Below are positions 19,904 to 54,295 of a DNA stretch of 64,000 nucleotides, one piece after another. This DNA comes from Subtercola sp. Z020 (GTDB lineage: Bacteria; Actinomycetota; Actinomycetes; Actinomycetales; Microbacteriaceae), in contig NZ_PSTT01000071.1 in NCBI RefSeq assembly GCF_002931235.1, positions 62,001-126,000 on the forward strand, read 5' to 3'. The position numbers and the translations under genes were made by a program. The number at the start of each line of letters is the position of its first letter. Position 1 is the first letter of the stretch. The notes beneath the pieces are model-generated. The model was not told the origin of the DNA. It ran no database searches and saw only the letters and a list, made by a program, of their open reading frames with translations.

Positions 19904-20028
19904 GTCGACATTCGAACATATCTCCGAACAGGATGCAAACAGACGGCGCTCAGGTTCTGACCGGGCAGGGGCCAGTAGCATATGAGCTTCGGAGCACTCC
20001 GGCCGGCGACGGCACGCAGAAGGGGAAG

Positions 20029-20523
20029 ATGGACGAGAAGCCCAGGTTCTCCCGCCGCACCCTGCTGAAGGCCGCGGCGATCGCCGTTCCGGTCGCCGGC
20101 ATCGCCATCGCCGTGCCGACGGCTCTCACCCGGCGGCCCGACGTCGCCATGTGGTGGACGAGCCTCAGCCAGAACGGCTCCAGCTCGCGCGCCAGCCTGA
20201 ACGTGCGCATCCCCGCCGGGGTGCCGTCGGCGGCGGGCGCCTCCATCTTCGTGAATGCGGCGTCGTTCCCGGTCTATGCCGTGAAGTCGGTCACCGCGAA
20301 CGACCCGTGGCGCCCGTTCTTCGCGAAAGACGCGCCCTTCCAGCTGCTGACCGCCGACCGCACGGCTGAGGAACGCACCGCGCTGGTGGTCGTCGACTTC
20401 GTGCGGATGAGTTCCGACGAGTCGGCCGGAACCGTGCGCGCAACGTGCAACGGTGCCGACGGGAACCTGCTGGCCGAAGCGTCGCTGAACCTCGCCCAGC
20501 CCCTCTTCACGAGGTTTTCGTAG
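20029..20523 (+). CDS. Tat-signal small secreted protein of unknown function
   Basis: The 164-residue product starts MDEKPRFSRRTLLKAAAIAV, with twin Arg followed by a hydrophobic helix up to residue 33, so Tat-dependent export is likely; there is no lipobox. The mature part has a DUF-like beta pattern (ASLNVRIPAG, ALVVVDFVRM) and a single Cys. The start at 20029 has an AAGGGG sequence just upstream; the frame is open for 32 codons further back. I do not recognise the family. Its last 17 bases overlap the convergent GH28-like gene. Confidence 0.72.
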   Translation: MDEKPRFSRRTLLKAAAIAVPVAGIAIAVPTALTRRPDVAMWWTSLSQNGSSSRASLNVRIPAGVPSAAGASIFVNAASFPVYAVKSVTANDPWRPFFAKDAPFQLLTADRTAEERTALVVVDFVRMSSDESAGTVRATCNGADGNLLAEASLNLAQPLFTRFS

Positions 20524-24168: not shown

Positions 24169-25590
24169 CTATTTGCGGCCGCGACGGCGGCGAGCCGGAG
24201 CAGTCTCTGCTTCTTCGTCGACCGGACCTGCGCCGTAGTAGCCGTACTTCTCGTTGTGGTAGGAGTCGGGGCCCTTGTTCGGCAGCATCGTCAGAACCAC
24301 ACCGACGACCTTGCTGTCGATGCTGGTCAGCGAGTTGAGCGCCCGCGCCAGCTCGGTGCGCTTCACCTTGCCGGAACCGGCGACGACGATCGCGCCCGCC
24401 GTCATGCTGCTGATGATCGCACCGTCGGTGACGGGCAGCAGGGGCGGCGCGTCGATGATGACGTAGTCGACCTGATCGTTCAGGGCGCTCAACAGGTTCT
24501 GCATCGCGTCTGAACCGAGCAGCTCGCTCGGGTTCGGGGGCACTCGACCGGCCGGCAGCACGTAGAGCTCACGGTTGCCCCAGCGCTGTAGAACGTCGAC
24601 CAGCGGCACGGAACCGATCAGCACATCGGTGAGACCGACGGCCCCTTCGAGCCCCATGTAGTCGGCCAGTTTGGGCTTCCTGAGGTCACCGTCGATGATG
24701 ACGACCCGCACGCCCGTCTCGGCAAGCGCCAGAGAGAGGTTCGCTGCGGTCGTGCTCTTGCCCTCACCCGCGATCGACGAGGTGACGACGAAGCAGTGGT
24801 TGTCCGAGCCTGCGCTCACGAAGCGCAGGTTGGTGCGAAGCGCCCGGAAGGCCTCCGCACGCGGGTTGCGCGGGTCGCTGTGTACGAGAAGAGGATGCTT
24901 GTTCGACTCAGGGTCGAAGCTGATACCACCGAGCAGGGGCGCGTCGGTGACGCTCGAGACGTCGTGGGCGCCGTGAACGCGGGTGTCGAGTGCGGTTCGG
25001 AGGAACGCGGCACCCAGACCGAAGACGAGACCGACCAGCAGGCCGAGCACGATGTTCAACGGCACGTTCGGGCTCGACGGGCTGGTGGGAACCAGCGCGG
25101 GGTCGACGACCTGCACCTTGACGAGGCTGTCGCCGCCACCGGCCGGCTTCTCGAGATCGTTGACGACGGCCTCGGAGAAGCTCTGCGCGGTGGCGTTGGC
25201 GAGGTTCGCGGCCGTCTGCGGGTCGGAGTCGGTGGCCGTGAGCTCGATGATCACGGTTCCCGTCGGGGATTCGGCCGAGAGCTGGGAGGCGAGGCGCTTG
25301 CTCGTCGTGTCGAGGTTGAGTTCGGCGATGACCGTGTCGAGAACCGAAGCGCTGGTGATGATGCTGACGTACGACTTCACCTTGGCCTGGGCGTAGTTGT
25401 TGCCCGACGTCAGGTCACCGGCGGTCGGGGTGTCTGACACAGCGACAGAGACGTACATGGTGGTCGTCGTGCGGTACTGCGGTGTCGCCGCGATCGCCAG
25501 CGCAGCGCCGGCTCCGATGCCCAGCAGAGCGAAGACGACGATGAAGACCCATCCCTTACGGATGACGCGGAAATAACCTTCTAAAGTCAT
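24169..25590 (-). CDS. Wzz-type chain-length regulator fused to BY-kinase (paralog 1)
   Basis: The 473-residue protein has the Wzz topology: membrane helix after MTLEGYFRVIRKGWVFI, an extracellular domain, the Pro/Ser-rich SPSSPNVPLN motif before the second helix, then a cytoplasmic tyrosine kinase. Kinase motifs are Walker A SIAGEGKSTTAANLSLALA in shortened form GEGKST, Walker A' VVIIDGDLRKPKL, and Walker B YVIIDAPPLL. The C-terminal tail has a Tyr cluster (YHNEKYGYYG) and a basic end. It should control EPS chain length by autophosphorylation. It is separated from the main EPS genes, next to the copper operon on the same strand. Confidence 0.93.
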   Translation of the reverse strand: MTLEGYFRVIRKGWVFIVVFALLGIGAGAALAIAATPQYRTTTTMYVSVAVSDTPTAGDLTSGNNYAQAKVKSYVSIITSASVLDTVIAELNLDTTSKRLASQLSAESPTGTVIIELTATDSDPQTAANLANATAQSFSEAVVNDLEKPAGGGDSLVKVQVVDPALVPTSPSSPNVPLNIVLGLLVGLVFGLGAAFLRTALDTRVHGAHDVSSVTDAPLLGGISFDPESNKHPLLVHSDPRNPRAEAFRALRTNLRFVSAGSDNHCFVVTSSIAGEGKSTTAANLSLALAETGVRVVIIDGDLRKPKLADYMGLEGAVGLTDVLIGSVPLVDVLQRWGNRELYVLPAGRVPPNPSELLGSDAMQNLLSALNDQVDYVIIDAPPLLPVTDGAIISSMTAGAIVVAGSGKVKRTELARALNSLTSIDSKVVGVVLTMLPNKGPDSYHNEKYGYYGAGPVDEEAETAPARRRRGRK

Positions 25591-25734: not shown

Positions 25735-26880
25735 ATGTGTCGCCCATCCCCTGATCGCCGCGCCGTCTCTGCGGCAGCACTCACGATCGTCACCTGCGCG
25801 CTCGCGACGGCGCTCGTCTTCGGCGGAGCGAACCCCGCGAATGCCCTGACGTTCCCCTCCCTCACTGCGGCAGACGCCGTCACCCCGGTCATCGATGACC
25901 CGCCAGCGGAACCGGATACCGACCCTCTGCCGACGGTCGACCCGGCGCCGGCTCCCAACCCCAGCGATGAGCCGGCACCGAGCGCCGAACCGGGCCCGCC
26001 TGTCGAGCCCAGCGTCGATCCGCCGGCCCCGACGGAGGAGCCGGCGCCGGCGACCGAGGTACCTGCTCCAGCCGATCCCATTCCCGTCGAGCAGCCGAGT
26101 GAAGCGTCGGTGCCCGAGCCCGACGAATCAGGGTACGACCCTGAGGAAGTCTCCGGTGAAGAGACCGCGACGCCCGCCCCGACAGTGACTCCCGCCCCGA
26201 CCCCGACCGCAGTCGTCACTGCGACCGCTGCGCCTGCCCCTGCTGTCGAACTGCCCTTCTACCCGCCGCCGTCGGCCGGAACCGCCTACGACACGTTCCC
26301 GTTGCTGCTCGCCGGGACACTCGCCGGCCTCGTGCTGCTGCTCGGTTTCGCGACATCAATTTTCACGCGGTGGCGCGTTCGCGGCCTGCGGGGCCCTGTT
26401 CGCAGCCGGGTCGCGCTCCCCAGCGATGACGCTCTGTCGAGCTTCTCATCCCGTCCAATGAACAGTGCGGCGACCAGGGCCGGGCTCGCGCTTCCCTGGA
26501 GCACGGTCGCACGGCCCGCGCGCGACACCGTCGCCTCCGGCTTCGCGCTCGGCTTACCCCGTTTGAGCGCCCGTGACGACGGCGGGTGGGCTGCCCAATT
26601 CGACGCCGGCTTCGACGTTCGCTCGAAGGTGTCCGTGACCAGAAACCGTACACCCGATTTCACGCTGCCGTTCAGCACGGAGACCGCCGCAGCTCCCGCC
26701 GCAGAAACGACCGCCCCCGGCGATCGGCGCGCCGACCTGCAGGTGTTCGACAAGCCGAAGGCAGCCCGCGAGCAGGCGGCGGCCTTCGCCGCCCGCTTCG
26801 GCCTGCCGTTCGGCAAGCGCAGCGCGGGCTCTGGCACCGGCGTCGGCAACTACGACCTCGGCCTGCCGGGAACGACCTAG
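25735..26880 (+). CDS. Secreted, membrane-anchored Pro/Glu-rich protein of unknown function
   Basis: The 381-residue protein (ATG 25735, GAAGG ribosome-binding site eight bases upstream) has a signal peptide ending ...GGANPANA. About 130 residues of Pro, Ala, Glu, Thr and Asp follow (PAPNPSDEPAPSAEPG type), then one membrane helix (FPLLLAGTLAGLVLLLGFA), then a basic cytoplasmic domain of about 170 residues with GLP/PF-rich repeats. The extracellular part looks like a flexible wall-spanning spacer. It is divergent from BY-kinase 1 and convergent with the signal peptidase gene. I do not recognise the cytoplasmic domain. Confidence 0.78.
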   Translation: MCRPSPDRRAVSAAALTIVTCALATALVFGGANPANALTFPSLTAADAVTPVIDDPPAEPDTDPLPTVDPAPAPNPSDEPAPSAEPGPPVEPSVDPPAPTEEPAPATEVPAPADPIPVEQPSEASVPEPDESGYDPEEVSGEETATPAPTVTPAPTPTAVVTATAAPAPAVELPFYPPPSAGTAYDTFPLLLAGTLAGLVLLLGFATSIFTRWRVRGLRGPVRSRVALPSDDALSSFSSRPMNSAATRAGLALPWSTVARPARDTVASGFALGLPRLSARDDGGWAAQFDAGFDVRSKVSVTRNRTPDFTLPFSTETAAAPAAETTAPGDRRADLQVFDKPKAAREQAAAFAARFGLPFGKRSAGSGTGVGNYDLGLPGTT

Positions 26881-26904: not shown

Positions 26905-27618
26905 CTAGAATCCACGCCAGTCGCCCGGCGGAAAGACGATCGCGGCGACCCGGCCGACGATGTCGTTCCGACCGACCATCTTGAGACAGTCGCTGCCCGA
27001 ACTGCCGCCCCGGCACGCGAAGATCGAGTCGTTCGAGTTCGACCGATGGTCGCCCAGCACGAAGTACTGCCCCTCAGGAACGGTGAGCTCGCCGAAGCAC
27101 CGCTCCGACACCGGGGAGGTCGAACAGTCGAACGAGCCCGCGACGAACGGATAGTCGGCGTACACGTACGGCTCGTCGAGCGGCACCCCGTCGACGAGCA
27201 CCCGGCCCTCGGCGTCGCAGCACGACACCGTCTGCCCCGGCCCCGCGATCACCCGCTTCACCAGCGTGTGGTCGAGGTTCGGGCCGATCCCGACGAGCCC
27301 GCCCACCCACCGCGCCGCGTAGACGAAGGGGTTCGAGGGGGCGGGGGTCGCCTCGCCCCAGAGGTCTGAGGCCGTGAAGACGACGATGTCGCCGTCGTGC
27401 GGGTCGCCGAAGTCCAACGACACCCGGTCGACCAGCAGCCGATCGCCGATCGAGAGGGTCTGCTGCATCGACCCCGAGGGCACGTAGTAGACCTTCACGA
27501 TGAACGCCTGCACCAGCGCCAGCACGACGAAGGCGGCGAGGAGGTTGAACCAGAAGCTGCCGGTGATGCGCCGGATGCCCGTGCGGGCCGGTCGCCTGGC
27601 CGGCGGTTCTGCGGTCAC
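26905..27618 (-). CDS. lepB: Type I signal peptidase
   Basis: The 237-residue protease has one N-terminal membrane helix (about residues 23-41). Catalytic Ser 50 is in VPSGSMQQTL and catalytic Lys 121 in LVKRVIAGPG; the box GDIVVF and the late GDHRSNSNDS are also present. Two Cys pairs in the extracytoplasmic part (SCCDAEG, DCSTSPVSERC) are unusual extras. It overlaps the HprK-like gene by four bases, so it may be a dedicated peptidase for that system. The gene name reflects the family; another housekeeping copy may exist elsewhere. Confidence 0.93.
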   Translation of the reverse strand: MTAEPPARRPARTGIRRITGSFWFNLLAAFVVLALVQAFIVKVYYVPSGSMQQTLSIGDRLLVDRVSLDFGDPHDGDIVVFTASDLWGEATPAPSNPFVYAARWVGGLVGIGPNLDHTLVKRVIAGPGQTVSCCDAEGRVLVDGVPLDEPYVYADYPFVAGSFDCSTSPVSERCFGELTVPEGQYFVLGDHRSNSNDSIFACRGGSSGSDCLKMVGRNDIVGRVAAIVFPPGDWRGF

Positions 27619-28778
27619 GACACACCGGCCGGGCGCAGCAGGCCCGCGGAGACCAGCTCGTCGACAGCGGCCGACACGAGCTCACCCGAAGACCCGGAGG
27701 GCGCGTCACCGTGGGTCGCCACCACGGCCCCTGCAAGGTCGTCGAGCGTCGCCCCCCAGACCGCCGTCTCGAAGATGGCCGGGGCGATACCGGCCAGCAC
27801 CCGAACGACCGAGTCGTTCAGCACGATCAGCGAGTCGCCGTCTCTCACGGCGTCGTCGAAGACGGCGTACAGCAGCTCGGCGGAGGCTCGGCGGGTCGCA
27901 TCAGGGTCCGCCGCATCAGGCTCCACCGCATCGGGCTCCACCGCATCCGCCGCCCCACCCGCAGCACCCGCCGCCGCGAAGATCCCCGCGAACACGTCGA
28001 CCAGCGTCTCCGCCTCGAGGTAGCTGACCTGCCGGAGCCCTCCGCACCGGTCGAGAATCCCCTGCAGGCGCTGCAGCGGGCGCCCGCGTTCGGCGAGGTA
28101 GCTCACCTGCGGCACCAGTTCGCCGATGGCCTCCGCCAACCCGGTGCTCCGGATGCTCGGCAGCCCCGTGCCGTCGCCCCCCGTGCGGCGGTCGAGCATC
28201 ACCACGCCGACGAGCCTCAGCGGTACGGCCGGTGGCGGCAGCAGACCGAGCTCAGAGGGCGAGACCTGCCGCTTCCACCGCTCGGGCGCCGGCTGCTTCA
28301 CCGAGAGCGGCTTCGCGTAGGGCAGCACGGTGAGGTCGTCGTTGACCCCGAGAGTCTCGTCGGTGACGTAGCCGAACTGCCGGCCGAGCGCGATCGACGC
28401 CGTGGTCTTGCCGCGGCCGGAGGGGCCGACGAAAGCGATCACCGCGCCCGTGCTGAGGTCGGCCACCGCTCCGGCGTGCAGCATCACGAGGTCGTTGCGG
28501 CGGGTGTCGATGGCCCGGCGGGTGAGCAGGCCCGACAGACGGTCTTCGAGTTCACCGAAGCTGTTCGCGACCAGCTCGGCACCAGCATCCGGAGCCGAAG
28601 ACGGCGCCCTGAGTTCGGCCCGCACCTCGGCCCCCGGCATCGTCGGGGCGGCGGTGACGAGCCGCCCGCCGCACCACTCCCAGGCCCGCGCCACCTGCTC
28701 TGCCTCTGCATCTGTGACACCCGACAGCGAGACCGCGAACGGAACGCCGAGGCAGCTGACTTCGACGAGGTGCGTCAT
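27615..28778 (-). CDS. HPr-kinase-like P-loop protein fused to a PqqD-like domain
   Basis: The 387-residue protein starts at ATG 28778 (MTHLVEVSCLGVP); the open frame upstream has no similarity. Residues 90-260 show the HprK-related fold: VMLHAGAV around His 101, Walker A GPSGRGKTT at 118-126, TDETLGV (Asp-Glu 140-141) and VLPYAKPLSVK, as in HprK-related kinases of peptide-modification and EPS loci. A linker with VEPDA repeats (280-294) follows. Residues about 303-385 (DGDSLIVLNDSVVRVLAG, TLDDLAGAVV, VDELVSAGLL) match PqqD-like peptide-chaperone domains. No acceptor peptide gene is obvious nearby. Function as a peptide Ser/Thr kinase is inference; nucleotide binding is well supported. Confidence 0.78.
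   Translation of the reverse strand: MTHLVEVSCLGVPFAVSLSGVTDAEAEQVARAWEWCGGRLVTAAPTMPGAEVRAELRAPSSAPDAGAELVANSFGELEDRLSGLLTRRAIDTRRNDLVMLHAGAVADLSTGAVIAFVGPSGRGKTTASIALGRQFGYVTDETLGVNDDLTVLPYAKPLSVKQPAPERWKRQVSPSELGLLPPPAVPLRLVGVVMLDRRTGGDGTGLPSIRSTGLAEAIGELVPQVSYLAERGRPLQRLQGILDRCGGLRQVSYLEAETLVDVFAGIFAAAGAAGGAADAVEPDAVEPDAADPDATRRASAELLYAVFDDAVRDGDSLIVLNDSVVRVLAGIAPAIFETAVWGATLDDLAGAVVATHGDAPSGSSGELVSAAVDELVSAGLLRPAGVS
27897..27941 (-). repeat. VEPDA-coding tandem repeat in the HprK-PqqD linker
   Basis: Three 15-base units encode VEPDA, VEPDA and ADPDA, at the junction between the kinase and PqqD-like domains. The unit length is a multiple of three, so the linker can change length without loss of frame. 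Confidence 0.65.
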
Positions 28779-28807
28779 GCCCCCCACGCTAGCGCACACG
28801 CCCGGCG

Positions 28808-30115
28808 CTACGAGGAGGGCTTCGTGAGTCCCCAGCGGGGGTAGAGAACCTCGTACCCGCGGGTCAGGCCACCATCGAGCGCGACGTTGTCGTGGCTGCT
28901 GTCGGGGATCTCCGTGTAGGTCGCCGTGATGCCTGCGGCGACCGCGGCGTCGTAGGTGCGCTTCACCCCCGGGAGCGCCTCCGAGTCGTTCGCTCCCACG
29001 GCGAAGACCCCCACCGAGTCCGGATATTTCGTCTTCGACATGATGGTCTTCGGCCACACCGCCTCATAGGCGGCCTGGTCGCCGCCGAACACCCGGGAGA
29101 GCGTCGAGCGATCGTCGACGCCCTGGTACTCGTCACCCGACAGGTCGACGACGTTGCCGAACACCTCGGGGTACTTCGCGCCGAAGTAGGCCGCGCACAT
29201 GCCGCCGTTCGAGAAGCCCAGAACGGTCCAGTCCTTCGGGTCGTCAGAGACCGCGAAGTGCGACTTCACCCACGGAACGACGTCTTTCATGATGTAGGTC
29301 TCGACGTTGCCCATGGAGGTGTCGAGGCACAGCGGGTCTTTCGAATCGTCGCCGAGCTGGTCGGGGTTCACGACGATCGGGCCGAGCCCGTTGTCGGCCG
29401 CCGCCATCTTGTCGAGGATGGCCTTCGGGTCGTCGAGGCCCGGGCTGCCCGGTTGGCCGTTCAGCTGGATGATCACCGGCAGTTTCGGCTTCGATGCCAC
29501 CAGCCCCGCCGGCGGAACGTAGGCCAGCGCCGTGCGGGCGACGAACCCCGATGCCGAGTTCGGAATGTCGACGGTACCGAGCGAACCGGTGGCCGGCAGG
29601 TCGGCGGGAGCCTTCCACGATTCGTACAGCGGGGTGTTCGGGTCGATGCCGGGGTCGGCGGTCGACGGGGCGCCCAGGTCGAGCGGCTTCTCGTTCGTGA
29701 CCCCGAGGAACGCTGCGACCGTCTTGTCGAGCCCGAACGCCGCGTTCACGCCGAGCGTTCCGGTGAGCACGAAGACGAGGATCGACACCGCGGCGATCAC
29801 CTTGCGCCACCACCGGGAGAGCCACAGGTTCACCACCGCCACAGCGACAGCCGCGAAGGTCAGGATGATCCAGGTGTCGACGATCGGCGAGAGCCGCGTG
29901 CCGAAGAGATTCAGCACATTGACGGTGAGCAGGATCGTGAGGGCGCCGATCAGCGCACCCGAGACGGCACCGATGCTCGCCGTCAGCACCCAGCGCACGG
30001 TGGGCCGCCGAATGAGCAGGTAGAGCACCAGGGCGATGCTGATGCCGCTCATCGTGGCGATCAGCGGCGCGTTGACGATGTTCAGGCTCAGGATGGCGTC
30101 GCTCACTCTCCACAT
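28808..30115 (-). CDS. Membrane-anchored esterase (alpha/beta hydrolase, antigen-85/EsteraseD-like)
   Basis: The 435-residue protein has four N-terminal membrane helices within residues 8-150 (for example IATMSGISIALVLYLL and TWIILTFAAVAVAVVNLW). The exported hydrolase domain has VIIQLNGQPG, the nucleophile elbow GFSNGGMCAAYFG, an acid region VGANDSEALPG, and a catalytic His in SSHDNVA. The fold matches putative esterases related to mycobacterial mycolyltransferases. Start choice is uncertain (ATG 30115, ATG 30124 or GTG 30109). It lies 29 bases upstream of the HprK-like gene on the same strand, so co-transcription with the kinase and signal peptidase is likely. Confidence 0.85.
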   Translation of the reverse strand: MWRVSDAILSLNIVNAPLIATMSGISIALVLYLLIRRPTVRWVLTASIGAVSGALIGALTILLTVNVLNLFGTRLSPIVDTWIILTFAAVAVAVVNLWLSRWWRKVIAAVSILVFVLTGTLGVNAAFGLDKTVAAFLGVTNEKPLDLGAPSTADPGIDPNTPLYESWKAPADLPATGSLGTVDIPNSASGFVARTALAYVPPAGLVASKPKLPVIIQLNGQPGSPGLDDPKAILDKMAAADNGLGPIVVNPDQLGDDSKDPLCLDTSMGNVETYIMKDVVPWVKSHFAVSDDPKDWTVLGFSNGGMCAAYFGAKYPEVFGNVVDLSGDEYQGVDDRSTLSRVFGGDQAAYEAVWPKTIMSKTKYPDSVGVFAVGANDSEALPGVKRTYDAAVAAGITATYTEIPDSSHDNVALDGGLTRGYEVLYPRWGLTKPSS

Positions 30116-30184
30116 TATGGCCATGCCGGCTGTGCTGTAGTGCACAGCGCCCGAGCGGACAAGCCCCCCACTCCGGGAGGTGTT

Positions 30185-30201
30185 CCCGACTCGGGGTCGG
30201 G
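30185..30201. promoter_or_regulatory. Palindrome CCCGAC-TCGGG-GTCGGG
   Basis: Six-base arms with a 5-base spacer lie in the 123-base divergent region between the esterase and the small gene at 30239, about 40 bases before the latter. It is one of several C/G-tract palindromes in EPS-region promoters; a regulator-binding role is inference. Confidence 0.4.
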
Positions 30202-30238
30202 AGTAGCGTGGAAGGGACCCCCTTGGAGGCATACCCGA

Positions 30239-30517
30239 ATGACGTCAGTACTGCAGTTCGGCTCGAACGAGATCGTCGTCAGCGATCCGAACGAGATCAC
30301 CTACCTGAAGGAGATGATCCAGCGGATCGTCTCCGAGGGCCGCACCGAGTGGGTACCGTTCCTCTGCGAACTCGACGACGGCACCCCGCAGACCTTCGAT
30401 CTGCTGGTCACACCCGGTGTTCCCATCTCGATCGTCTCCGACGTTCCCCGTGAGCTCTTCTCCGGCGACGCGGGGATCACGTCAGTATCCAGCCGTCTCG
30501 GATCAGCCGGCGCCTGA
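30239..30517 (+). CDS. Small protein of unknown function (92 aa)
   Basis: The gene starts at ATG 30239 with a GGAGG ribosome-binding site nine bases upstream. The product (MTSVLQFGSNEIVVSDPNEI...) is soluble, with an amphipathic helix (TYLKEMIQRIVSEG) followed by beta strands (EWVPFLCEL, TFDLLVTPGVPISIV). No signal peptide or known family. Its last 41 bases overlap the convergent LuxR-type regulator gene, so the two transcripts are complementary there. Codon use supports it as a real gene. Confidence 0.7.
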   Translation: MTSVLQFGSNEIVVSDPNEITYLKEMIQRIVSEGRTEWVPFLCELDDGTPQTFDLLVTPGVPISIVSDVPRELFSGDAGITSVSSRLGSAGA

Positions 30518-31133
30518 GCTCCATCTTCGTCACCGTCTCCCCGTCGAGCGAATACTTGCGGCGCACGTGGGCGATGTGCGTTCGCACCGTCTCGGCTGAG
30601 AGCCCGAACCGGGCAGCCGTCTCGGGCACGGAGGCGCCGGAACCCGACAGATAGGCGCTGACGATCTCCAGTTCCCGGAGCGTCAGGGCGGGCACCTCGG
30701 GCGTGCGGCCCTCGTCGAGCAGTTCCACCACGGAATCGGAGAGCGTCACGTCGCCCCGGGAGGCTCCGGCAACGGCGGCAGCGACGCTCTCCGAGGGATC
30801 GCTCTGCAGAACGTAGGCGTGGGCGCCCGCGGCCAGCACGCGGCGGATGGCCGGCGCGTAGGTGGTCGCACCGATCACCACGATGCCCGTGCCGTGGGGG
30901 GCGAGGGTGGCGACTTTGGCCGCGGTCGGTGTTCCGTTGCTCAGTTCGTTGTCGAGCAGCACGACGTCGGCCACGCTCTGGTCGCGGTTGTTGTAGACGT
31001 GCCACGACTTCGTCCAACCGTCGACGGACGCGCCGGGAAGCAGGGTCTTCAGCTTCACGCTGATCGCTTCGGCGAGCATCCTGCTCTCGTGCACGACATG
31101 GATGCGGATGCGACGGGGTTTTGCGGGTGCCAC
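30477..31133 (-). CDS. LuxR-type regulator with atypical receiver domain
   Basis: The 218-residue protein starts at GTG 31133 with an AGGAGGAAGAGG ribosome-binding site. The N-terminal receiver-like fold (IHVVHESRMLAEAIS...VADVVLLDNELSNG, VVIGATTYAPAIRRVLAAGAHAYVLQ) keeps the phospho-acceptor-like Asp in LLDNE but has HE in place of the usual acidic pair, so phosphorylation may not control it. The C-terminal HTH (LTLRELEIVSAYLSG, SAETVRTHIAHVRRKYS) is a standard GerE/LuxR helix-turn-helix. It is divergent from BY-kinase 2 across 136 bases and is the best candidate EPS regulator. Confidence 0.88.
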   Translation of the reverse strand: MAPAKPRRIRIHVVHESRMLAEAISVKLKTLLPGASVDGWTKSWHVYNNRDQSVADVVLLDNELSNGTPTAAKVATLAPHGTGIVVIGATTYAPAIRRVLAAGAHAYVLQSDPSESVAAAVAGASRGDVTLSDSVVELLDEGRTPEVPALTLRELEIVSAYLSGSGASVPETAARFGLSAETVRTHIAHVRRKYSLDGETVTKMELRRRLIRDGWILT

Positions 31134-31229
31134 GCTACCTCTTCCTCCTGCCGCTGGGCCGGCCCGGGGTAGCAAAAGCATAGGACATCCATTCAGATGA
31201 CCCGGAAGACCCCCGAAGGCGGCACATGT

Positions 31230-31235
31230 TACGAT
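31230..31235 (+). promoter_or_regulatory. Candidate -10 element (TACGAT) before BY-kinase 2
   Basis: TACGAT preceded by TGT lies 35 bases before the GTG start of the kinase gene, in a relatively A/T-rich patch of the divergent region with the LuxR regulator. No clear -35 is seen. Confidence 0.35.
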
Positions 31236-31269
31236 CGCGAAAACATCAAGCACGCGAGCAGGGGGCACT

Positions 31270-32841
31270 GTGGAGCTGTCGGCGTACCTTCGGATTCTCA
31301 GGAACCACTGGATCGGCATCATCGTCTTCATTGCGCTCGGGGCGGGCGTCGCGTCGGGCTGGTCGATCGTGCAGCCGCGCGTGTACACGGCCGATGCGAG
31401 CGGAATCCTCACCACGGGCGTGAGCACCGACCTCGGCTCCGCGCTCGTGGGTGACAACTACGCGAAGTCGCGGGTGAAGTCGTACCTCAACGTGGCCAAA
31501 TCCCGGGCGGTCGCCAACTACGCGATCGACAAGCTGGGGCTCACGTCGTCGCCGGAATCGCTCATCTCGAGCATCACTGTCGTCAATCCCGAAGACACCG
31601 CCGTGCTGCAGATCTCGGCGCAGGGGTCGACGCCCACCAAGGCACGTGACCTCGCCGAGACCTGGGTCGACGGCATGACCGAGCAGGTCAATGCGCTGGA
31701 GAACGCGTCGGCAGGCGCTGCGACGGGAACGGCGGCAGCCGGCCCCTCGATCGTCACCCTGCAGACCTTGGACTCCGCCGTTCTGCCCACCTCGCCCACC
31801 TCGCCCAACACCCGGCTCGCCATTCTGATCGGCCTGCTCTTCGGCCTCGGCCTCGGCATCGCCTACGCCGTCGTCAGGCACACCCTCGACCGCCGCATCC
31901 GTTCCGTCACCGCTGTGGAGAAGGAGTTCGGGCTGCCCGTCGTCGGAACCGTGCCCTTCGACCGCAACTTCACCGACACGAACCGTCTGGTCGAGCAGAG
32001 CTCCACGTCGAACTACGTCGGCCGGCGCACCGACGACGACGCCGTCTCCGAGGCGATGCGCGAGCTCCGCACCAACCTGCAGTTCATGAACGTCGACAAC
32101 CCGCCCCGCATCATCGTCGTCACGAGTTCTCTCGCCGGTGACGGCAAGTCGACCATCACGGCCAACCTCGCCACCACCATCGCCGCCTCCGGCCAGCGCG
32201 TCGTCGTCGTCGACGGCGACCTCCGCCGACCCACCGTGGCCAAGTCGTTCGACCTCCTCCCCGGCGTGGGCCTCACCGACGTGCTGGTCGGCCGGGCCGA
32301 GATCGAAGACGTGCTGCAGCCCTGGGGAGACTCCGGGCGGCTCGCCGTGATGGGAGCGGGCGTCATTCCGCCGAACCCCAGCGAACTGCTCGGGTCGATG
32401 GCGATGCAGTCACTCCTGAACGAACTCGCCCGCGACGCCATCGTGCTGATCGACGCTCCGCCGCTCATCCCCGTCACCGACGCCGCCATTCTGACCGCCC
32501 GCACCGACGGGGCCCTCATCGTGGCCTCTGTGGGCAAGACCTCGATCGACGCCCTCGGCAAGTCGTTGCAGAACATCGCGAAGGTGAACGGGCGGGCTCT
32601 CGGGGTGATTCTGAACCGGGTGCCGCGCAAGGGATCGAGCAGCGGCTACTACGGGTACCAGTACAAGGGCGACTACTACTCCTCTGAGGCCAACGCCGAG
32701 GGCACCGCCGCCCCGCACGTCGTTCCGGAGTACGCCGACGTGCCCCGGGAGAAGGCGCGCCGCGCGGTACGGGCCGAGCGCGTGGTCACCGAGCCGGAGG
32801 TCGCCGAGGCGCCGGTCGCCCCGACGACTCCGCTCCGCTGA
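31270..32841 (+). CDS. Wzz-type chain-length regulator fused to BY-kinase (paralog 2)
   Basis: The 523-residue protein (GTG 31270) begins MELSAYLRILRNHWIGI with a membrane helix, then the extracellular coil, the PTSPTSPNTRL motif and the second helix. The kinase has GDGKST (Walker A), VVVVDGDLRRPT (Walker A') and VLIDAPPLIPV (Walker B). Its C-terminus contains a Tyr cluster (SGYYGYQYKGDYYSSE) followed by a longer Arg/Glu/Val-rich tail not seen in paralog 1. It leads a plus-strand operon with a phosphatase, a nucleotidyltransferase and a PqqD-like gene, all overlapping or within 15 bases. Confidence 0.93.
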   Translation: MELSAYLRILRNHWIGIIVFIALGAGVASGWSIVQPRVYTADASGILTTGVSTDLGSALVGDNYAKSRVKSYLNVAKSRAVANYAIDKLGLTSSPESLISSITVVNPEDTAVLQISAQGSTPTKARDLAETWVDGMTEQVNALENASAGAATGTAAAGPSIVTLQTLDSAVLPTSPTSPNTRLAILIGLLFGLGLGIAYAVVRHTLDRRIRSVTAVEKEFGLPVVGTVPFDRNFTDTNRLVEQSSTSNYVGRRTDDDAVSEAMRELRTNLQFMNVDNPPRIIVVTSSLAGDGKSTITANLATTIAASGQRVVVVDGDLRRPTVAKSFDLLPGVGLTDVLVGRAEIEDVLQPWGDSGRLAVMGAGVIPPNPSELLGSMAMQSLLNELARDAIVLIDAPPLIPVTDAAILTARTDGALIVASVGKTSIDALGKSLQNIAKVNGRALGVILNRVPRKGSSSGYYGYQYKGDYYSSEANAEGTAAPHVVPEYADVPREKARRAVRAERVVTEPEVAEAPVAPTTPLR

Positions 32842-32854
32842 GCGCGAGCCGGCC

Positions 32855-33568
32855 ATGAGCGAGACGACAACCCCCGGCAGTCCGGGCACGCGGGGCGCCG
32901 ACCCCGCGGCGTTCGGCATCGTCATGGTGTGCGAGGGCAACATCTGCCGCTCGCCGCTCGCCGAACAGTTGATGCGTTCCCGCCTCGGCGAGGCGGGCCT
33001 GTACGCGGCGGTCACCGTCTCCAGCGGCGGGCTGGGCGCCCTCGTGGGCTCCGCGATGGATGCGACGGCGGCCGAGCAGTCCCGCCGGTACCGCGGGCGC
33101 CCCGACGACTTCCGCGCACGCCAGCTGCGGTCGGCGATCGTGAACCCGGCAGACCTCGTTCTGACCATGACCCGTGCCCAGCGCGACGACGTCGTGCAGC
33201 GCTACCCGCGCATCCTGCAGCGCACCTTCACCCTGGTCGAGTTCGCGAAGCTGCTGGCCCTCGACGCCGTCGACCTGCCGGAATCGAACAGCGACTTCGC
33301 TTCCGTCGCCGCCCAGCTCGCCGCATCGGGCCTTCCGGAGCGAGCGCCGGAGATCGCCGGCATGCTCCGCGATCGCACGCGGAGCTACGCGCGACTGCGG
33401 AGCCGCGCCCGCCTGCAGGCCGACGACGACATCGCCGACCCGTACCGCCGGGACCCGCAGGTTCACGAGGCCGTCGCGCAGAAGATCAGCCTGGCCACGG
33501 CGCAGATCGTGCACAACTTCGCGGGCTGGGCTGTCGACTCCGAGGGCAGCGATCGCCTGCGAGCATGA
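32855..33568 (+). CDS. Low-molecular-weight protein tyrosine phosphatase (EPS type, paralog 1)
   Basis: The 237-residue phosphatase has the signature CEGNICRSP (Cys-x5-Arg-Ser) after VMVCEGN, and the general acid Asp in the DIADPYRRDP block near residue 200. A central insertion of about 60 residues (FTLVEFAKLLAL...RAPEIAGMLRDRT) makes it longer than classical 150-residue enzymes, as in other actinobacterial EPS phosphatases. It should dephosphorylate the Tyr tail of the adjacent BY-kinase. The TGA overlaps the ATG of the next gene. Confidence 0.92.
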   Translation: MSETTTPGSPGTRGADPAAFGIVMVCEGNICRSPLAEQLMRSRLGEAGLYAAVTVSSGGLGALVGSAMDATAAEQSRRYRGRPDDFRARQLRSAIVNPADLVLTMTRAQRDDVVQRYPRILQRTFTLVEFAKLLALDAVDLPESNSDFASVAAQLAASGLPERAPEIAGMLRDRTRSYARLRSRARLQADDDIADPYRRDPQVHEAVAQKISLATAQIVHNFAGWAVDSEGSDRLRA

Positions 33569-34503
33569 GCGCCCCGCACCCGGCATCCGCCCAGCTGCTC
33601 AGCACCAGAGACGCTGTCGACCTCGCATCGGCCTGGCTCTGCCATCGGGCGCGCGTGGCCGGAATCCGTGCGCTGCTCGTCAAGGGGCCGGTCGCCGCGC
33701 ACCTCGGATTGCGCAGGGAGAGGGTCTCGGCCGACGCCGACATCCTCGTCGAGCCGGGCAGGGTCGCGGAGTTCGTCGACGCTCTCGCACCGTTCGGCTG
33801 GCACGAGCGCCCGCAGGGTACCGTGCCGCAGCTCGTCGAGGCGCACTCGGTGTCGCTGATCAACGACGACTGGCCGATCGACCTCGATGTGCACGCGTTC
33901 TGGCCGGGCTTTCTCGCCGACAGCGGGCAGGTCTTCGACACTCTCTGGAACAGCCGCATCCACTCGACGCTCGCGGGTGCTGAAGTGACGGCCCCGAGCG
34001 CCGAGAGCATGGCCCTCATTCTGGCGCTGCACTCCCTGCGCCGCCCCCTCGGCAGGGACAGCTCACGGGTCGACGATCTGGCGGCCCTCTCCGCGGCGAC
34101 CCGGCGGGTCGTTCCGGTCGCCACGGGAGAGACCCTGCTGCGGCGCGCACGCGAGCTCGGCGCGACCCAGACGGCGGCTCCCTTCCTAAGGATGCTCGGG
34201 GTGGCGGTTGCCGCCGATCCGGCTCCGAGCCGCGAACTGCAGCTCTGGCGGCTGAAGGCCGAGACCCGCGGCAATGTCAGCGCCTGGCTGATGGAGGCGC
34301 GACGCGCGCGCGGCATCGAACGGGTGCGAGTGGTGCAACGGGCGGTGCTGCCGGGTTCGGCCGAACTGCGTCGGCTGCACCCCGACCTCCCGCCGGGCAT
34401 CCGGGGCCTCGTTCTCGGCTGGACGGGTCGATGGCGTTCTGGCCTCGGGGAGCTGCCCCGCACGGTGCGCGCCCTTCGGAGCGCGCGGGTGGAACGCCCG
34501 TGA
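33565..34503 (+). CDS. Nucleotidyltransferase-fold protein of the PqqD/HprK neighbourhood
   Basis: The 312-residue protein has the minimal nucleotidyltransferase layout: LLVKGPVAAHLGL (Lys-Gly 40-41), then RVSADADILVEP with the Asp-x-Asp pair at 57 and 59, and a third acidic position in PIDLDVHAFW. This matches the uncharacterised nucleotidyltransferase family (NTP_transf_5-like). The helical C-terminal half is rich in Arg and Leu. It is coupled to the phosphatase (ATGA overlap) and to the PqqD-like gene (GTGA overlap). The transferred group and acceptor are unknown. Confidence 0.85.
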   Translation: MSAPHPASAQLLSTRDAVDLASAWLCHRARVAGIRALLVKGPVAAHLGLRRERVSADADILVEPGRVAEFVDALAPFGWHERPQGTVPQLVEAHSVSLINDDWPIDLDVHAFWPGFLADSGQVFDTLWNSRIHSTLAGAEVTAPSAESMALILALHSLRRPLGRDSSRVDDLAALSAATRRVVPVATGETLLRRARELGATQTAAPFLRMLGVAVAADPAPSRELQLWRLKAETRGNVSAWLMEARRARGIERVRVVQRAVLPGSAELRRLHPDLPPGIRGLVLGWTGRWRSGLGELPRTVRALRSARVERP

Positions 34504-34805
34504 CCCGGCCGCTCGGGGATCGAACGACGGTGCGACGCCGCGAGAACGTCGCCGAACTCGAGTCTGCAGACGGCGTCGTCGTTCTGGCGATGGATGCGCC
34601 CCACTGCACACCGTTCCGGCTCACCGGTGGCGGCATGCTGGTTTGGCGGCACCTGACGGCAGACCGGCGGGAGGCTCGCACGGTCGTCGCCGAGGTCGCC
34701 TCAGAGTCCGACTCAGACGCCTCGGAGATCGAGCCTTCCGTACTGCTCTTCCTCGCCGAACTCGTCGACCTCGAACTGGTCGAGGCCCACGAGCGGGCGG
34801 ACTGA
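34500..34805 (+). CDS. PqqD-like small protein
   Basis: The 101-residue product (GTG 34500) has the PqqD-like order: RENVAELESADGVVVLAMDAP, then FRLTGGGMLVWRHLT, TVVAEVASESDSD and a C-terminal LLFLAELVDLELVEAH helix. PqqD domains act as chaperones that deliver a precursor peptide to a modifying enzyme. Stand-alone PqqD-like proteins occur with HprK-related kinases and nucleotidyltransferases in the HPr-rel-A set near EPS loci. Similarity is by pattern and context; the alignment is short, so confidence is moderate. Confidence 0.72.
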   Translation: MTRPLGDRTTVRRRENVAELESADGVVVLAMDAPHCTPFRLTGGGMLVWRHLTADRREARTVVAEVASESDSDASEIEPSVLLFLAELVDLELVEAHERAD

Positions 34806-51614: not shown

Positions 51615-52736
51615 TCACCGCGCGGAGTCGTACAACGACTCCAGTTTCTGGGTCTGTTTCACCAGATCGAAGTTCGAGGCGACATGGGCGGCCGCTGCCA
51701 GCCCCAGCGCCCTGGCCGCCACTTCGTCGCCGAGCAGGTGGTCGAGCGACGCCGCGAGGCCATCGACATCGTGCTCCGCGACGAGTATTCCCACTGTATC
51801 GGTCGACACCGCCTCGGGAATGCCCGAGTGCCGGGTGGAGACGACGGCGGTGCCGAGCGACATCGCCTCGACGAGCGCGATGGGCAGGCCTTCCCTGTCA
51901 CCGTTCGCCGCAGTCACGCTGGGCAGGGCGAAGATGCGCGATGCGCCGATCTCGCGGCGGACGGCCTCCTCCGACTGGCGGCCGAGGAACACGACGCGGT
52001 CGGTGAGGCCGAGCGTCGCGACCTGCGCGACGAGCGACTCCATCAGCGGCCCGTCGCCGATGATGCGGAGGGTCGCGTCTGAATGCTTTCCGGCCACCGC
52101 GGCGAACGCCGAGATGAGGTCGGCCGTGCCCTTCTTTTCCACGAGGCGGGCGACATGGATGATCTGCGGCGGCCTCGGCCACGGCGCGACGGCGAACAGC
52201 TCGGTGTCGACCCCGATGTAGTGCGTCAGCAGCTTGTTCTCCGGCAGCCCCAGCGCGAGCGCGCTCTGGCGGATCTGGTCGGAGACGCAGATCAGCAGCT
52301 CGGCGTGCGTGCCGAGGCTCAGCCGCCGCAGGGCGTAGTTGACCGCCATCGGGCGACGTGTCGCGATGAGCGCCTGCTTCGAGACGGTGACGTCCCGCCC
52401 GTGCAGGGTGACCACGAGCGGCACCTTCGCACTCTTCACTGCCCCCACCGCGTAGAGGCCGTCGGGGCCGAAGTGAGCGTGCACGATGTCGAGGTTCTGC
52501 TCGGCGACCAGGCGGTTCAGCGCGCGGGAGGTGCCGGTCATCCCGTACAGCGCATCGCCGACGGTGCCCACGCGGGAGGAGAGCGCGACGGCGTCGACCC
52601 CCTCCGGCCGGTCGGTGATGGCGCGACGGGCGATGAAGGTCGGCGAGTACCGCGAGAGCGCGCCGGCCTGGGCGCGGATGAACGTCTCGGAGGGTACGAA
52701 CAGGTTGTGCCGGAAGATGCCTGCGCGAGCCACCAC
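51615..52736 (-). CDS. Glycosyltransferase, GT4-like
   Basis: The 373-residue GT-B enzyme has VARAGIFRHNLFVPSETFIRAQ at the start, IIHVARLVEKKGTADLISAF, and NGDREGLPIALVEAMSLGTAVV (E-x7-E). The start is GTG 52736 (GGAGG ten bases upstream), sharing one base with the stop of the sugar-transferase gene; a second GTG at 52733 is possible. Sugar donor and acceptor unknown. Confidence 0.9.
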   Translation of the reverse strand: MVARAGIFRHNLFVPSETFIRAQAGALSRYSPTFIARRAITDRPEGVDAVALSSRVGTVGDALYGMTGTSRALNRLVAEQNLDIVHAHFGPDGLYAVGAVKSAKVPLVVTLHGRDVTVSKQALIATRRPMAVNYALRRLSLGTHAELLICVSDQIRQSALALGLPENKLLTHYIGVDTELFAVAPWPRPPQIIHVARLVEKKGTADLISAFAAVAGKHSDATLRIIGDGPLMESLVAQVATLGLTDRVVFLGRQSEEAVRREIGASRIFALPSVTAANGDREGLPIALVEAMSLGTAVVSTRHSGIPEAVSTDTVGILVAEHDVDGLAASLDHLLGDEVAARALGLAAAAHVASNFDLVKQTQKLESLYDSAR

Positions 52737-54238
52737 TAGTAGGCGCCCTCCGAGGCAAGAACGGCCCTCGCCGTCTTCCACAGAATGAGCAGGTCGCCCG
52801 TCATCGACCAGTTCTCGACGTAGTACAGGTCGAGACGAACCGAATCCTCCCACGAGAGGTCGGAGCGGCCGCTGACCTGCCAGAGGCCCGTGATGCCGGG
52901 CTTCACGAGGAAGCGGCGGTGCACGTGGGTCTCGTACTGCTCGACCTCGCGCTGGATCGGCGGGCGCGGGCCCACGATCGACATGCTGCCGCCGAAGACG
53001 TTGAACAGCTGCGGGAGTTCATCGATGCTGTAGCGCCGCAGGAACTTGCCGATCGGCGTCACGCGGGGGTCGTTGGCCATCTTGAAAAGGATCGTGTTGC
53101 CCTCGGTGCGTTCGGCGCTCTCGAGTCCGGCGAGCCGGGCTTCGGCATCGACGACCATCGAGCGGAACTTCAGCATGTTGAAGCGCGAACCGTTCAAACC
53201 GATGCGCTCCTGCTTGAAGAACACGTCGCCGGGGGTGCTGAGGCGCACCCCGATCGCGACCACCACGAGAAGGGGCGACAGGATCAGGATGAGGATCGAC
53301 GAGAGCACGATGTCGGTGGCGCGCTTGGCGAACCGCTTGCCGCCCGCGTAGCGCGGCGTCTCCACATGGATGAGCGGCAGGCCTGCGACAGGCCGGGTGT
53401 GGATGCGCGGACCACCGATGTCGGTGAGCGACGGCGCCACCACGAGGTGCTGCCGGCCGGGCTCGAGGCTCCAGCTCAGCTCACGGATCTTCTCGGGCGC
53501 CAGTTCGTCGCTCGAGGTGATGACCACCGTGTCAGCGCCGCAGGTGAGCATGGCGGCCTTCAGGTGGTCGATGTTGCCGAACACCGGAATGTCGGTGTCG
53601 GGCAGGTACCCCGCGACCAGCCCGCTCGGCACGCAGGCGCCGACGACTCGGTAGCCGGCTTGGGGCTGGCGGGCCAGTTCCCGGGCGATGTGCGAGGCGC
53701 TGGCGCTCGAACCGACCAACAGCACGCGCGAGCTGTAGAGCCCCGCTTTGCGCTGCAGGCTGAGCCAGCGACGCCACACGCTCCGCGAGAGCACGAGCAG
53801 GATGAGGCCGAGCGGCAGCGAGACGATGATGTACCCGCGGGCGAGGTCGACCTGGGTCAGGAAGGCAACGATGGCCACGAGGCCGAAGAGGCGGAGCGTG
53901 GCATCCGCGATCTGCTTGTACTCGGCAGAACCGGTGCCGACGATGCGGTACTCACGGGTGCCGTAGATGCTGAGCGCCAGCATCCAGGCGGCGATCAGCA
54001 CGAGCGAGACGAGGGTGTAGCTGAGGACGAGGTTGGTGGTGCCGGCGACGGCGGGCTTCACGAGGTTCGCACCGAACCACAGGAACTGGGTACCGAAGAC
54101 AGCCACGACCACGACCACCAGGTCGTTCAGAATCAGCCTCGACGCATAGACCACCCGCCAGTCGCGGCTCGTCCGTTTCGTCCCGCCTTCTGCCTTCATC
54201 TCGTTCTGTGTCAAGATCGGCACTTCTTCTTGGATCAT
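52736..54238 (-). CDS. Undecaprenyl-phosphate sugar-1-phosphate transferase (priming enzyme)
   Basis: The 500-residue protein of the WbaP/WcaJ type has four N-terminal membrane helices, a CoA-binding-like central domain (LLVGSSASASHIARELA), a further helix KRATDIVLSSILILILSP, and the catalytic domain with FKQERIGLNG, MLKFRSMVVDAE and PGITGLWQVSGRSD. It should start the repeat unit on undecaprenyl phosphate. I choose ATG 54238; the open frame extends upstream across a TATACAT sequence that looks like a promoter -10, so the TTG at 54295 is unlikely. Confidence 0.93.
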   Translation of the reverse strand: MIQEEVPILTQNEMKAEGGTKRTSRDWRVVYASRLILNDLVVVVVAVFGTQFLWFGANLVKPAVAGTTNLVLSYTLVSLVLIAAWMLALSIYGTREYRIVGTGSAEYKQIADATLRLFGLVAIVAFLTQVDLARGYIIVSLPLGLILLVLSRSVWRRWLSLQRKAGLYSSRVLLVGSSASASHIARELARQPQAGYRVVGACVPSGLVAGYLPDTDIPVFGNIDHLKAAMLTCGADTVVITSSDELAPEKIRELSWSLEPGRQHLVVAPSLTDIGGPRIHTRPVAGLPLIHVETPRYAGGKRFAKRATDIVLSSILILILSPLLVVVAIGVRLSTPGDVFFKQERIGLNGSRFNMLKFRSMVVDAEARLAGLESAERTEGNTILFKMANDPRVTPIGKFLRRYSIDELPQLFNVFGGSMSIVGPRPPIQREVEQYETHVHRRFLVKPGITGLWQVSGRSDLSWEDSVRLDLYYVENWSMTGDLLILWKTARAVLASEGAY

Positions 54239-54295
54239 GCTCCCCCACAGACTGCGCGGAACCGTGCTGCGGCTCACGCTCATCCTCGGAATCAA

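Follow-up and report, generated by a model that had tools for sequence, protein, structure and literature searches.

We analyzed a 64-kb stretch (the window) of the 3.5-Mb genome of the actinobacterium Subtercola sp. Z020 (contig NZ_PSTT01000071.1, positions 62,001 to 126,000). Our subject is a group of genes that may act together on exported proteins: an HprK-type kinase, a nucleotidyltransferase (NTase), two PqqD-like domains and a signal peptidase. A first-pass annotation of the sequence had read a P-loop HprK-like protein with a PqqD-like C-terminus, overlapping a type I signal peptidase gene, and an NTase and a stand-alone PqqD-like protein, overlapping each other and a tyrosine phosphatase gene; we recovered both arrangements at the same places. 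The LepB and HprK-PqqD genes share a 4-bp overlap, and the phosphatase, NTase and free PqqD genes are each joined to the next by a 4-bp overlap. PqqD domains are labelled here together with RRE, the recognition element of ribosomally synthesized and post-translationally modified peptides (RiPPs).

26905-27618, minus strand: type I signal peptidase (LepB paralogue), candidate leader peptidase (PF10502, Peptidase_S26, E 3.8e-34)
27615-28778, minus strand: HprK-type serine kinase with fused C-terminal PqqD/RRE domain (about residues 300-387), 387 aa (HprK_rel_A, 21 bits; fold; hhalign)
32855-33568, plus strand: low-molecular-weight tyrosine phosphatase, CX5R motif intact (PF01451, E 1.7e-22)
33565-34503, plus strand: NTase, NTP_transf_5 (PF14907, E 5.2e-9, above cut-off; alignment; NTase fold)
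34500-34805, plus strand: stand-alone PqqD/RRE protein (PF05402, E 4.8e-6, above cut-off)

In fold, the kinase part belongs with PEPCK and HprK (Z 15 against PEPCK), and its H101, K124 and D140 (catalytic His, Walker Lys and Asp) are invariant. The C-terminus of the window's kinase lies below the PF05402 match level; among orthologous kinases, 7 of 16 C-termini match this family (best 3e-6), and profile-profile comparison with the free PqqD protein using hhalign gave a probability of 97.3 (E 2.6e-11). The AlphaFold model of the kinase (predicted local distance difference test, pLDDT, 85) has the bbb-hhh-b arrangement of an RRE at residues 303-383. Since Foldseek/VIA spanned residues 1-328, it is by profiles and predicted topology that we assign the C-terminal domain to PqqD/RRE. 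The PqqD similarity suspected by the first-pass annotation is therefore present in both proteins. The free PqqD is the sole PF05402 match in the genome, and its profile ranks RRE structures from lasso peptide and linear polyphosphorylated peptide (LPP) pathways (5v1u, 7.6e-12; 9x90, 3.5e-8; 9x8z, 4e-8) before the PqqD of pyrroloquinoline quinone (PQQ) synthesis. In some relatives the kinase-type PqqD domain is a separate gene following the kinase, and in one locus (L038) a PqqD domain is fused to the NTase. Each enzyme thus seems to have a PqqD domain of its own, and the free PqqD is probably the partner of the NTase.

In the NTase, K40 and G41, D57-x-D59 and D108 are invariant in the alignment, and its model, of moderate quality (pLDDT 72), has a nucleotidyltransferase fold like that of MNT-type enzymes such as MenT1, with matches also to FKRP; a PDB sequence search returned no relatives. 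The LepB protein carries the Ser (PSGSM) and Lys (LVKRV) motifs of bacterial signal peptidase I (TIGR02227, E 8e-32) and is one of three S26 matches in the genome.

We viewed the neighbourhoods of kinase relatives (L028-L050 and L082-L101), including those of Rathayibacter, Microbacterium, Arthrobacter, Agromyces, Nocardioides and Demequina. They repeatedly hold genes for exported proteins that begin with a common 31-residue twin-arginine leader, GxSRRxVxxGAAW[SA]xPVIAxAxAxPAxAAS. The mature domains behind it are unrelated (immunoglobulin-like and RCC1-like by Pfam, many without any match), and the proteins, mostly of 60-500 residues, occur several per genome at scattered places. With its twin-arginine motif, hydrophobic region and AxA site, the leader bears the marks of a substrate of twin-arginine translocation (Tat). 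We aligned 85 leaders chosen for RR...WxxP, in which the Trp and the Pro at +3 are hence fixed by selection. At constant spacing from this Trp, they have Arg at -9 in 96% and at -8 in 100%, Pro at +12 in 99% and Ser at +17 in 95%, and conservation stops afterwards. In 78 of the 85, positions +13 and +15 each carry a residue allowed in an A-x-A site (+13 to +15), which would make Ser+17 residue 2 of the predicted mature protein. A leader model lacking the c-region still found Ser+17 in 58 of 73 matches on which it had not been trained. No Pfam or NCBIfam model covered the leader in the eight proteins tried. In three leader proteins of one locus (L097:5139-9428) Trp is replaced by Leu or Ile while P+3, P+12 and Ser+17 are kept, a naturally occurring test of PqqD's dependence on the Trp. 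By eye, the mature domain of two other leader proteins (L073, L075) resembles the DUF3494 ice-binding fold.

The window's genome encodes three intact leader proteins, all on other contigs, and in the window itself we found a degenerate copy (19933-20523) with Trp changed to Ile and both Ser and AxA lost. It was among small or exported proteins close to the kinase that the first-pass annotation had sought the substrate, and these candidates gave way to the dispersed WxxP leader family. The small open reading frame (ORF) at 30239-30517 has no family match and no counterpart in those loci of relatives that were searched, and the exported proteins starting at 25735 and 28808 lack a WxxP twin-arginine leader, the latter being a membrane-anchored esterase-like protein. 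The ORF does have a plausible ribosome-binding site; sister genomes show nothing related to it at this position, and it is either a species-specific insertion or spurious.

Kinase, NTase and leader are co-inherited, in agreement with the first-pass expectation that the genes travel together. Counts in our surveys are lower bounds, made among the matches listed; the window's own genome was excluded from the order sample and from a sample of 59 relatives, and a few surveyed genomes, G053 and G219 among them, had given training sequences. Across 247 genomes of the order, we found the kinase in at least 45, the leader in at least 43, the NTase in at least 41 and all three in at least 39. Kinase and leader occurred together in 39 genomes, with 6 having the kinase only, 4 the leader only and 198 neither (p 2e-34; kinase-NTase, p 1e-42; NTase-leader, p 2e-38; these p-values take no account of phylogeny). 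Among the 59 relatives, kinase and leader agreed in 58 (both present in 13, both absent in 45), and the remaining one had the leader alone. Within the class sample of 216 genomes, those with a strong kinase match (E < 1e-50, a threshold chosen after a gap in the E-values had been seen) were the same 8 genomes that had the leader. One genus (g49) is split, four genomes having kinase, NTase and leader and five having none, so shared ancestry alone is not a sufficient explanation.

The genes are also physically close. Of 39 genomes, 21 have a leader gene no more than 10 kb from the kinase, compared with about 0.9 expected under uniform placement, and four loci (L082, L083, L084 and L099) have operons of the order NTase-PqqD-BY-kinase-HprK-PqqD-leader genes. 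In five genomes (G144, G158, G200, G226 and G282) a good kinase match is accompanied by neither a leader nor a good NTase match, and this family of kinases may serve another purpose in them.

The remaining features of the window that concern us are the following.

19933-20523, plus strand: protein with degenerate leader (leader profile, E 7.8e-6, at 20044-20124)
24169-25590, minus strand: second BY-kinase, exopolysaccharide (EPS) context
28808-30142, minus strand: membrane protein with extracellular esterase-type domain (PF00756, E 3.3e-8)
31270-32841, plus strand: BY-kinase/chain-length determinant; its subclass is linked to the HprK locus (TIGR01007, E 5.4e-46)
52736-54295, minus strand: polyprenyl glycosylphosphotransferase, EPS context (PF02397, E 1.2e-68)

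The scan of the window placed the set among EPS genes, with further BY-kinases, glycosyltransferases, a flippase, a pyruvyl transferase and the glycosylphosphotransferase. Of 10 loci from the genus, 9 have a counterpart of the gene at 28808-30142 close to the kinase; its esterase family includes mycolyltransferases, and acyl transfer to surface proteins is a possible role. A LuxR-type regulator with a weak receiver domain (30477-31130), divergent from the BY-kinase gene and conserved in position, is a candidate regulator of the locus.

Taking these data together, we favour, with a probability of roughly two in three, the view that the gene set is the enzyme half of a leader-guided modification system for Tat-exported proteins, in which a Ser would be phosphorylated and then extended. 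The WxxP leader would be bound in the cytoplasm by the two PqqD/RRE domains, of which one is part of the HprK protein and the other is paired with the NTase; the HprK domain would phosphorylate the conserved Ser 17 residues past the Trp, and the NTase would act on the Ser phosphate, adding a nucleotidyl or sugar-phosphate group. Tat would then export the modified, folded protein, and the dedicated signal peptidase would cut after the A-x-A site. Tat carries proteins already folded in the cytoplasm, and so fits an order of modification before export. The proposed sequence of steps is drawn from the match to LPP geometry and from the kinase-then-NTase precedent of pseudomycoidin, both described below. 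The core of the first-pass proposal, that in an EPS setting kinase, PqqD, NTase and signal peptidase act on an exported protein with a leader, is strongly supported by the co-inheritance, the fusions, the operons and a published analogue.

Several observations weigh against this view. LepB is tightly linked to the kinase mainly inside this genus, where the two are adjacent in 9 of 10 loci; in other lineages the linkage is occasional (L037, L042, L086, L091 and L095). The intact leader proteins lie off the contig of the locus, and the copy in the window has neither the Trp nor the Ser. The six kinase-only and four leader-only genomes make the pairing less than absolute, and the genomes surveyed do not count as independent of one another. 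The scheme would require a PqqD domain to bind a hydrophobic Tat signal, and the Ser stands at +17, compared with +18 in LPP.

The same co-inheritance and leader data would fit a role of PqqD and kinase as signal-peptide chaperones, or quality control, for Tat substrates, the kinase acting as a temporal switch that phosphorylates its own partners, or the leader, and leaves no lasting mark on the exported protein. Tat substrates often need chaperones that bind the signal peptide, and in one locus (L037) LepB, TatA-like and TatC-like genes stand in a row flanked by two leader proteins. However, a co-inherited NTase with intact catalytic Asp residues, and the conservation of a Ser behind the predicted cleavage site, point to a product on the mature protein, and the LPP kinase modifies the core (PMC13381572); we therefore regard this role as unlikely. 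A bolder extension of the favoured system, which we offer as speculation and consider doubtful, is that an NTase-built phosphosugar on the N-terminal Ser would anchor Tat-exported proteins covalently to EPS, with BY-kinase and phosphatase coupling chain growth to this attachment; it would be the counterpart, on the signal-peptide side, of anchoring by exosortase or sortase.

Alternatively, HprK, NTase and PqqD could regulate or decorate EPS together with the BY-kinase and the phosphatase, the Tat proteins being matrix proteins that merely accompany one type of EPS. EPS genes do surround the set, the top-scoring relatives of the BY-kinase subclass adjoin HprK, and a phosphatase-like domain without CX5R is fused N-terminal to HprK in three loci (L082:7101-8564, L083:5753-7414 and L047:9155-10558), where it is possibly a module binding phospho-Ser or the leader. 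The BY-kinases and tyrosine phosphatase that the first-pass annotation saw interleaved with the set are more than bystanders from EPS synthesis, since both share its operon in several lineages and this domain fusion exists. Nevertheless, BY-kinase loci commonly occur with neither HprK nor leader: BY-kinase was found in 142 of 248 genomes, and only one of the 97 having it but no HprK had a leader. On this control we rejected EPS linkage as the sole reason for the co-occurrence. Moreover, three loci (L030, L033 and L034) have kinase and leader genes side by side and no BY-kinase in the surrounding 10 kb or so, the conserved part of the exported proteins is the cleaved leader and not the mature protein, and PqqD domains are peptide binders. 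We consider a pure EPS function improbable. That the genes make a small phosphorylated RiPP of lasso or LPP type, the Tat proteins being bystanders, is very improbable: RRE, HprK-like kinase, NTase and signal peptidase do make up the LPP core (PMC13381572) and the free PqqD is nearest to lasso RREs, but no conserved small precursor was seen beside the genes, the 30239 ORF having no counterpart in the relatives' loci searched, and the WxxP motif of LPP and lasso leaders sits in the Tat leader itself.

If the favoured system is real, RRE-guided chemistry of the RiPP type is used on full-size secreted proteins, and one signal peptide serves both to export a protein and to mark it for modification. 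The system would give a functional context to three unexplained actinobacterial families (HprK-related kinases, NTP_transf_5 and stray PqqD proteins), and it makes testable predictions by naming an exact phosphosite and a recognition motif. The leader also defines a class of surface proteins that about 17% of the genomes sampled from the order encode; we found no Pfam or NCBIfam model for this class. A search of PMC full text (subscription papers being outside its scope) on the leader motif and on HprK-related kinases returned no earlier description of this system, which we take for a widespread, apparently undescribed, Tat-coupled actinobacterial relative of the LPP pathway that would act on full-size exported proteins.

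Among known systems, the likeness to HPr-rel-A of Proteobacteria drawn by the first-pass annotation stands only as a distant relationship. We take it to lie in an HprK-related kinase with a PqqD-like partner near EPS genes, and the kinase, at 21.1 bits against a cut-off of 200 for TIGR04352 (HprK_rel_A), cannot be filed under that family. Like PEP-CTERM/exosortase (PMC1569441), the present system has an EPS-linked sorting signal on unrelated exported proteins that is visible by phylogenetic profiling; here, in contrast, the signal is N-terminal and twin-arginine, modification enzymes take the place of the transpeptidase, and no exosortase was seen. With lasso peptides of the paeninodin/pseudomycoidin type it has in common an HprK homologue, an NTase and an RRE, which there phosphorylate a Ser, act on the phosphate and bind a WxxP leader, as they would here; for pseudomycoidin, kinase and then NTase give a phospho-hexose on Ser, the hexose being added to the kinase-made phosphate (PMC8498205, PMC9266682). 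The substrates here are, instead, exported proteins. The C-terminal Ser conserved in paeninodin-type precursors is not conserved here, the C-terminal residues of the 85 leader proteins being mixed, and neither a macrolactam cyclase (asparagine synthase homologue) nor a B2 peptidase was seen near the genes, with no genome-wide search made.

The closest parallel is LPP of Bacillota, described in 2026 from the lppA-K-B-S-D-N genes of Paenibacillus alginolyticus (PMC13381572). There an RRE binds a YxxP leader, the HprK-like LppK puts several phosphates on core Ser3, and LppS, of signal peptidase type, cuts after +15 with help from the RRE; an NTP transferase belongs to the core set, though inactive in the host used, and the clusters sit in capsule loci (PMC13381572). 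The system described here is found in Actinobacteria, its leader is a twin-arginine signal with Trp, its RRE is fused to the kinase with a second one free, its predicted mature Ser is at position 2 instead of 3, and its proposed substrates are scattered proteins, several per genome. Its peptidase is a bacterial Ser/Lys LepB, whereas that of LPP is an archaeal-type, SipW-like signal peptidase I (Ser-His-Asp). Since the locus lacks a SipW-type peptidase, and we noticed no MsbA-like exporter among the genes tabulated for the loci viewed (no search was aimed at such exporters), we regard the system as working in an LPP-like manner without filing it as LPP. Both share the kinase with catalytic His-Lys-Asp, the RRE, a leader peptidase (a candidate one here) of signal peptidase type and an NTP transferase (PF14907 here, likened to LppN by role, not by family comparison), as well as precursors, putative in the present case, with conserved N-terminus and variable C-terminus, a [Y/W]xxP motif and a capsule or EPS location. 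The geometry match was noticed after the leader had been defined, and LPP was not used in building it: counted from the aromatic residue, LPP has P+3, a cut after +15 and Ser+18, and the actinobacterial leader has P+3, A-x-A at +13 to +15 and Ser+17, placing in both the cut (predicted here) 15 residues past the aromatic residue and a Ser just behind it.

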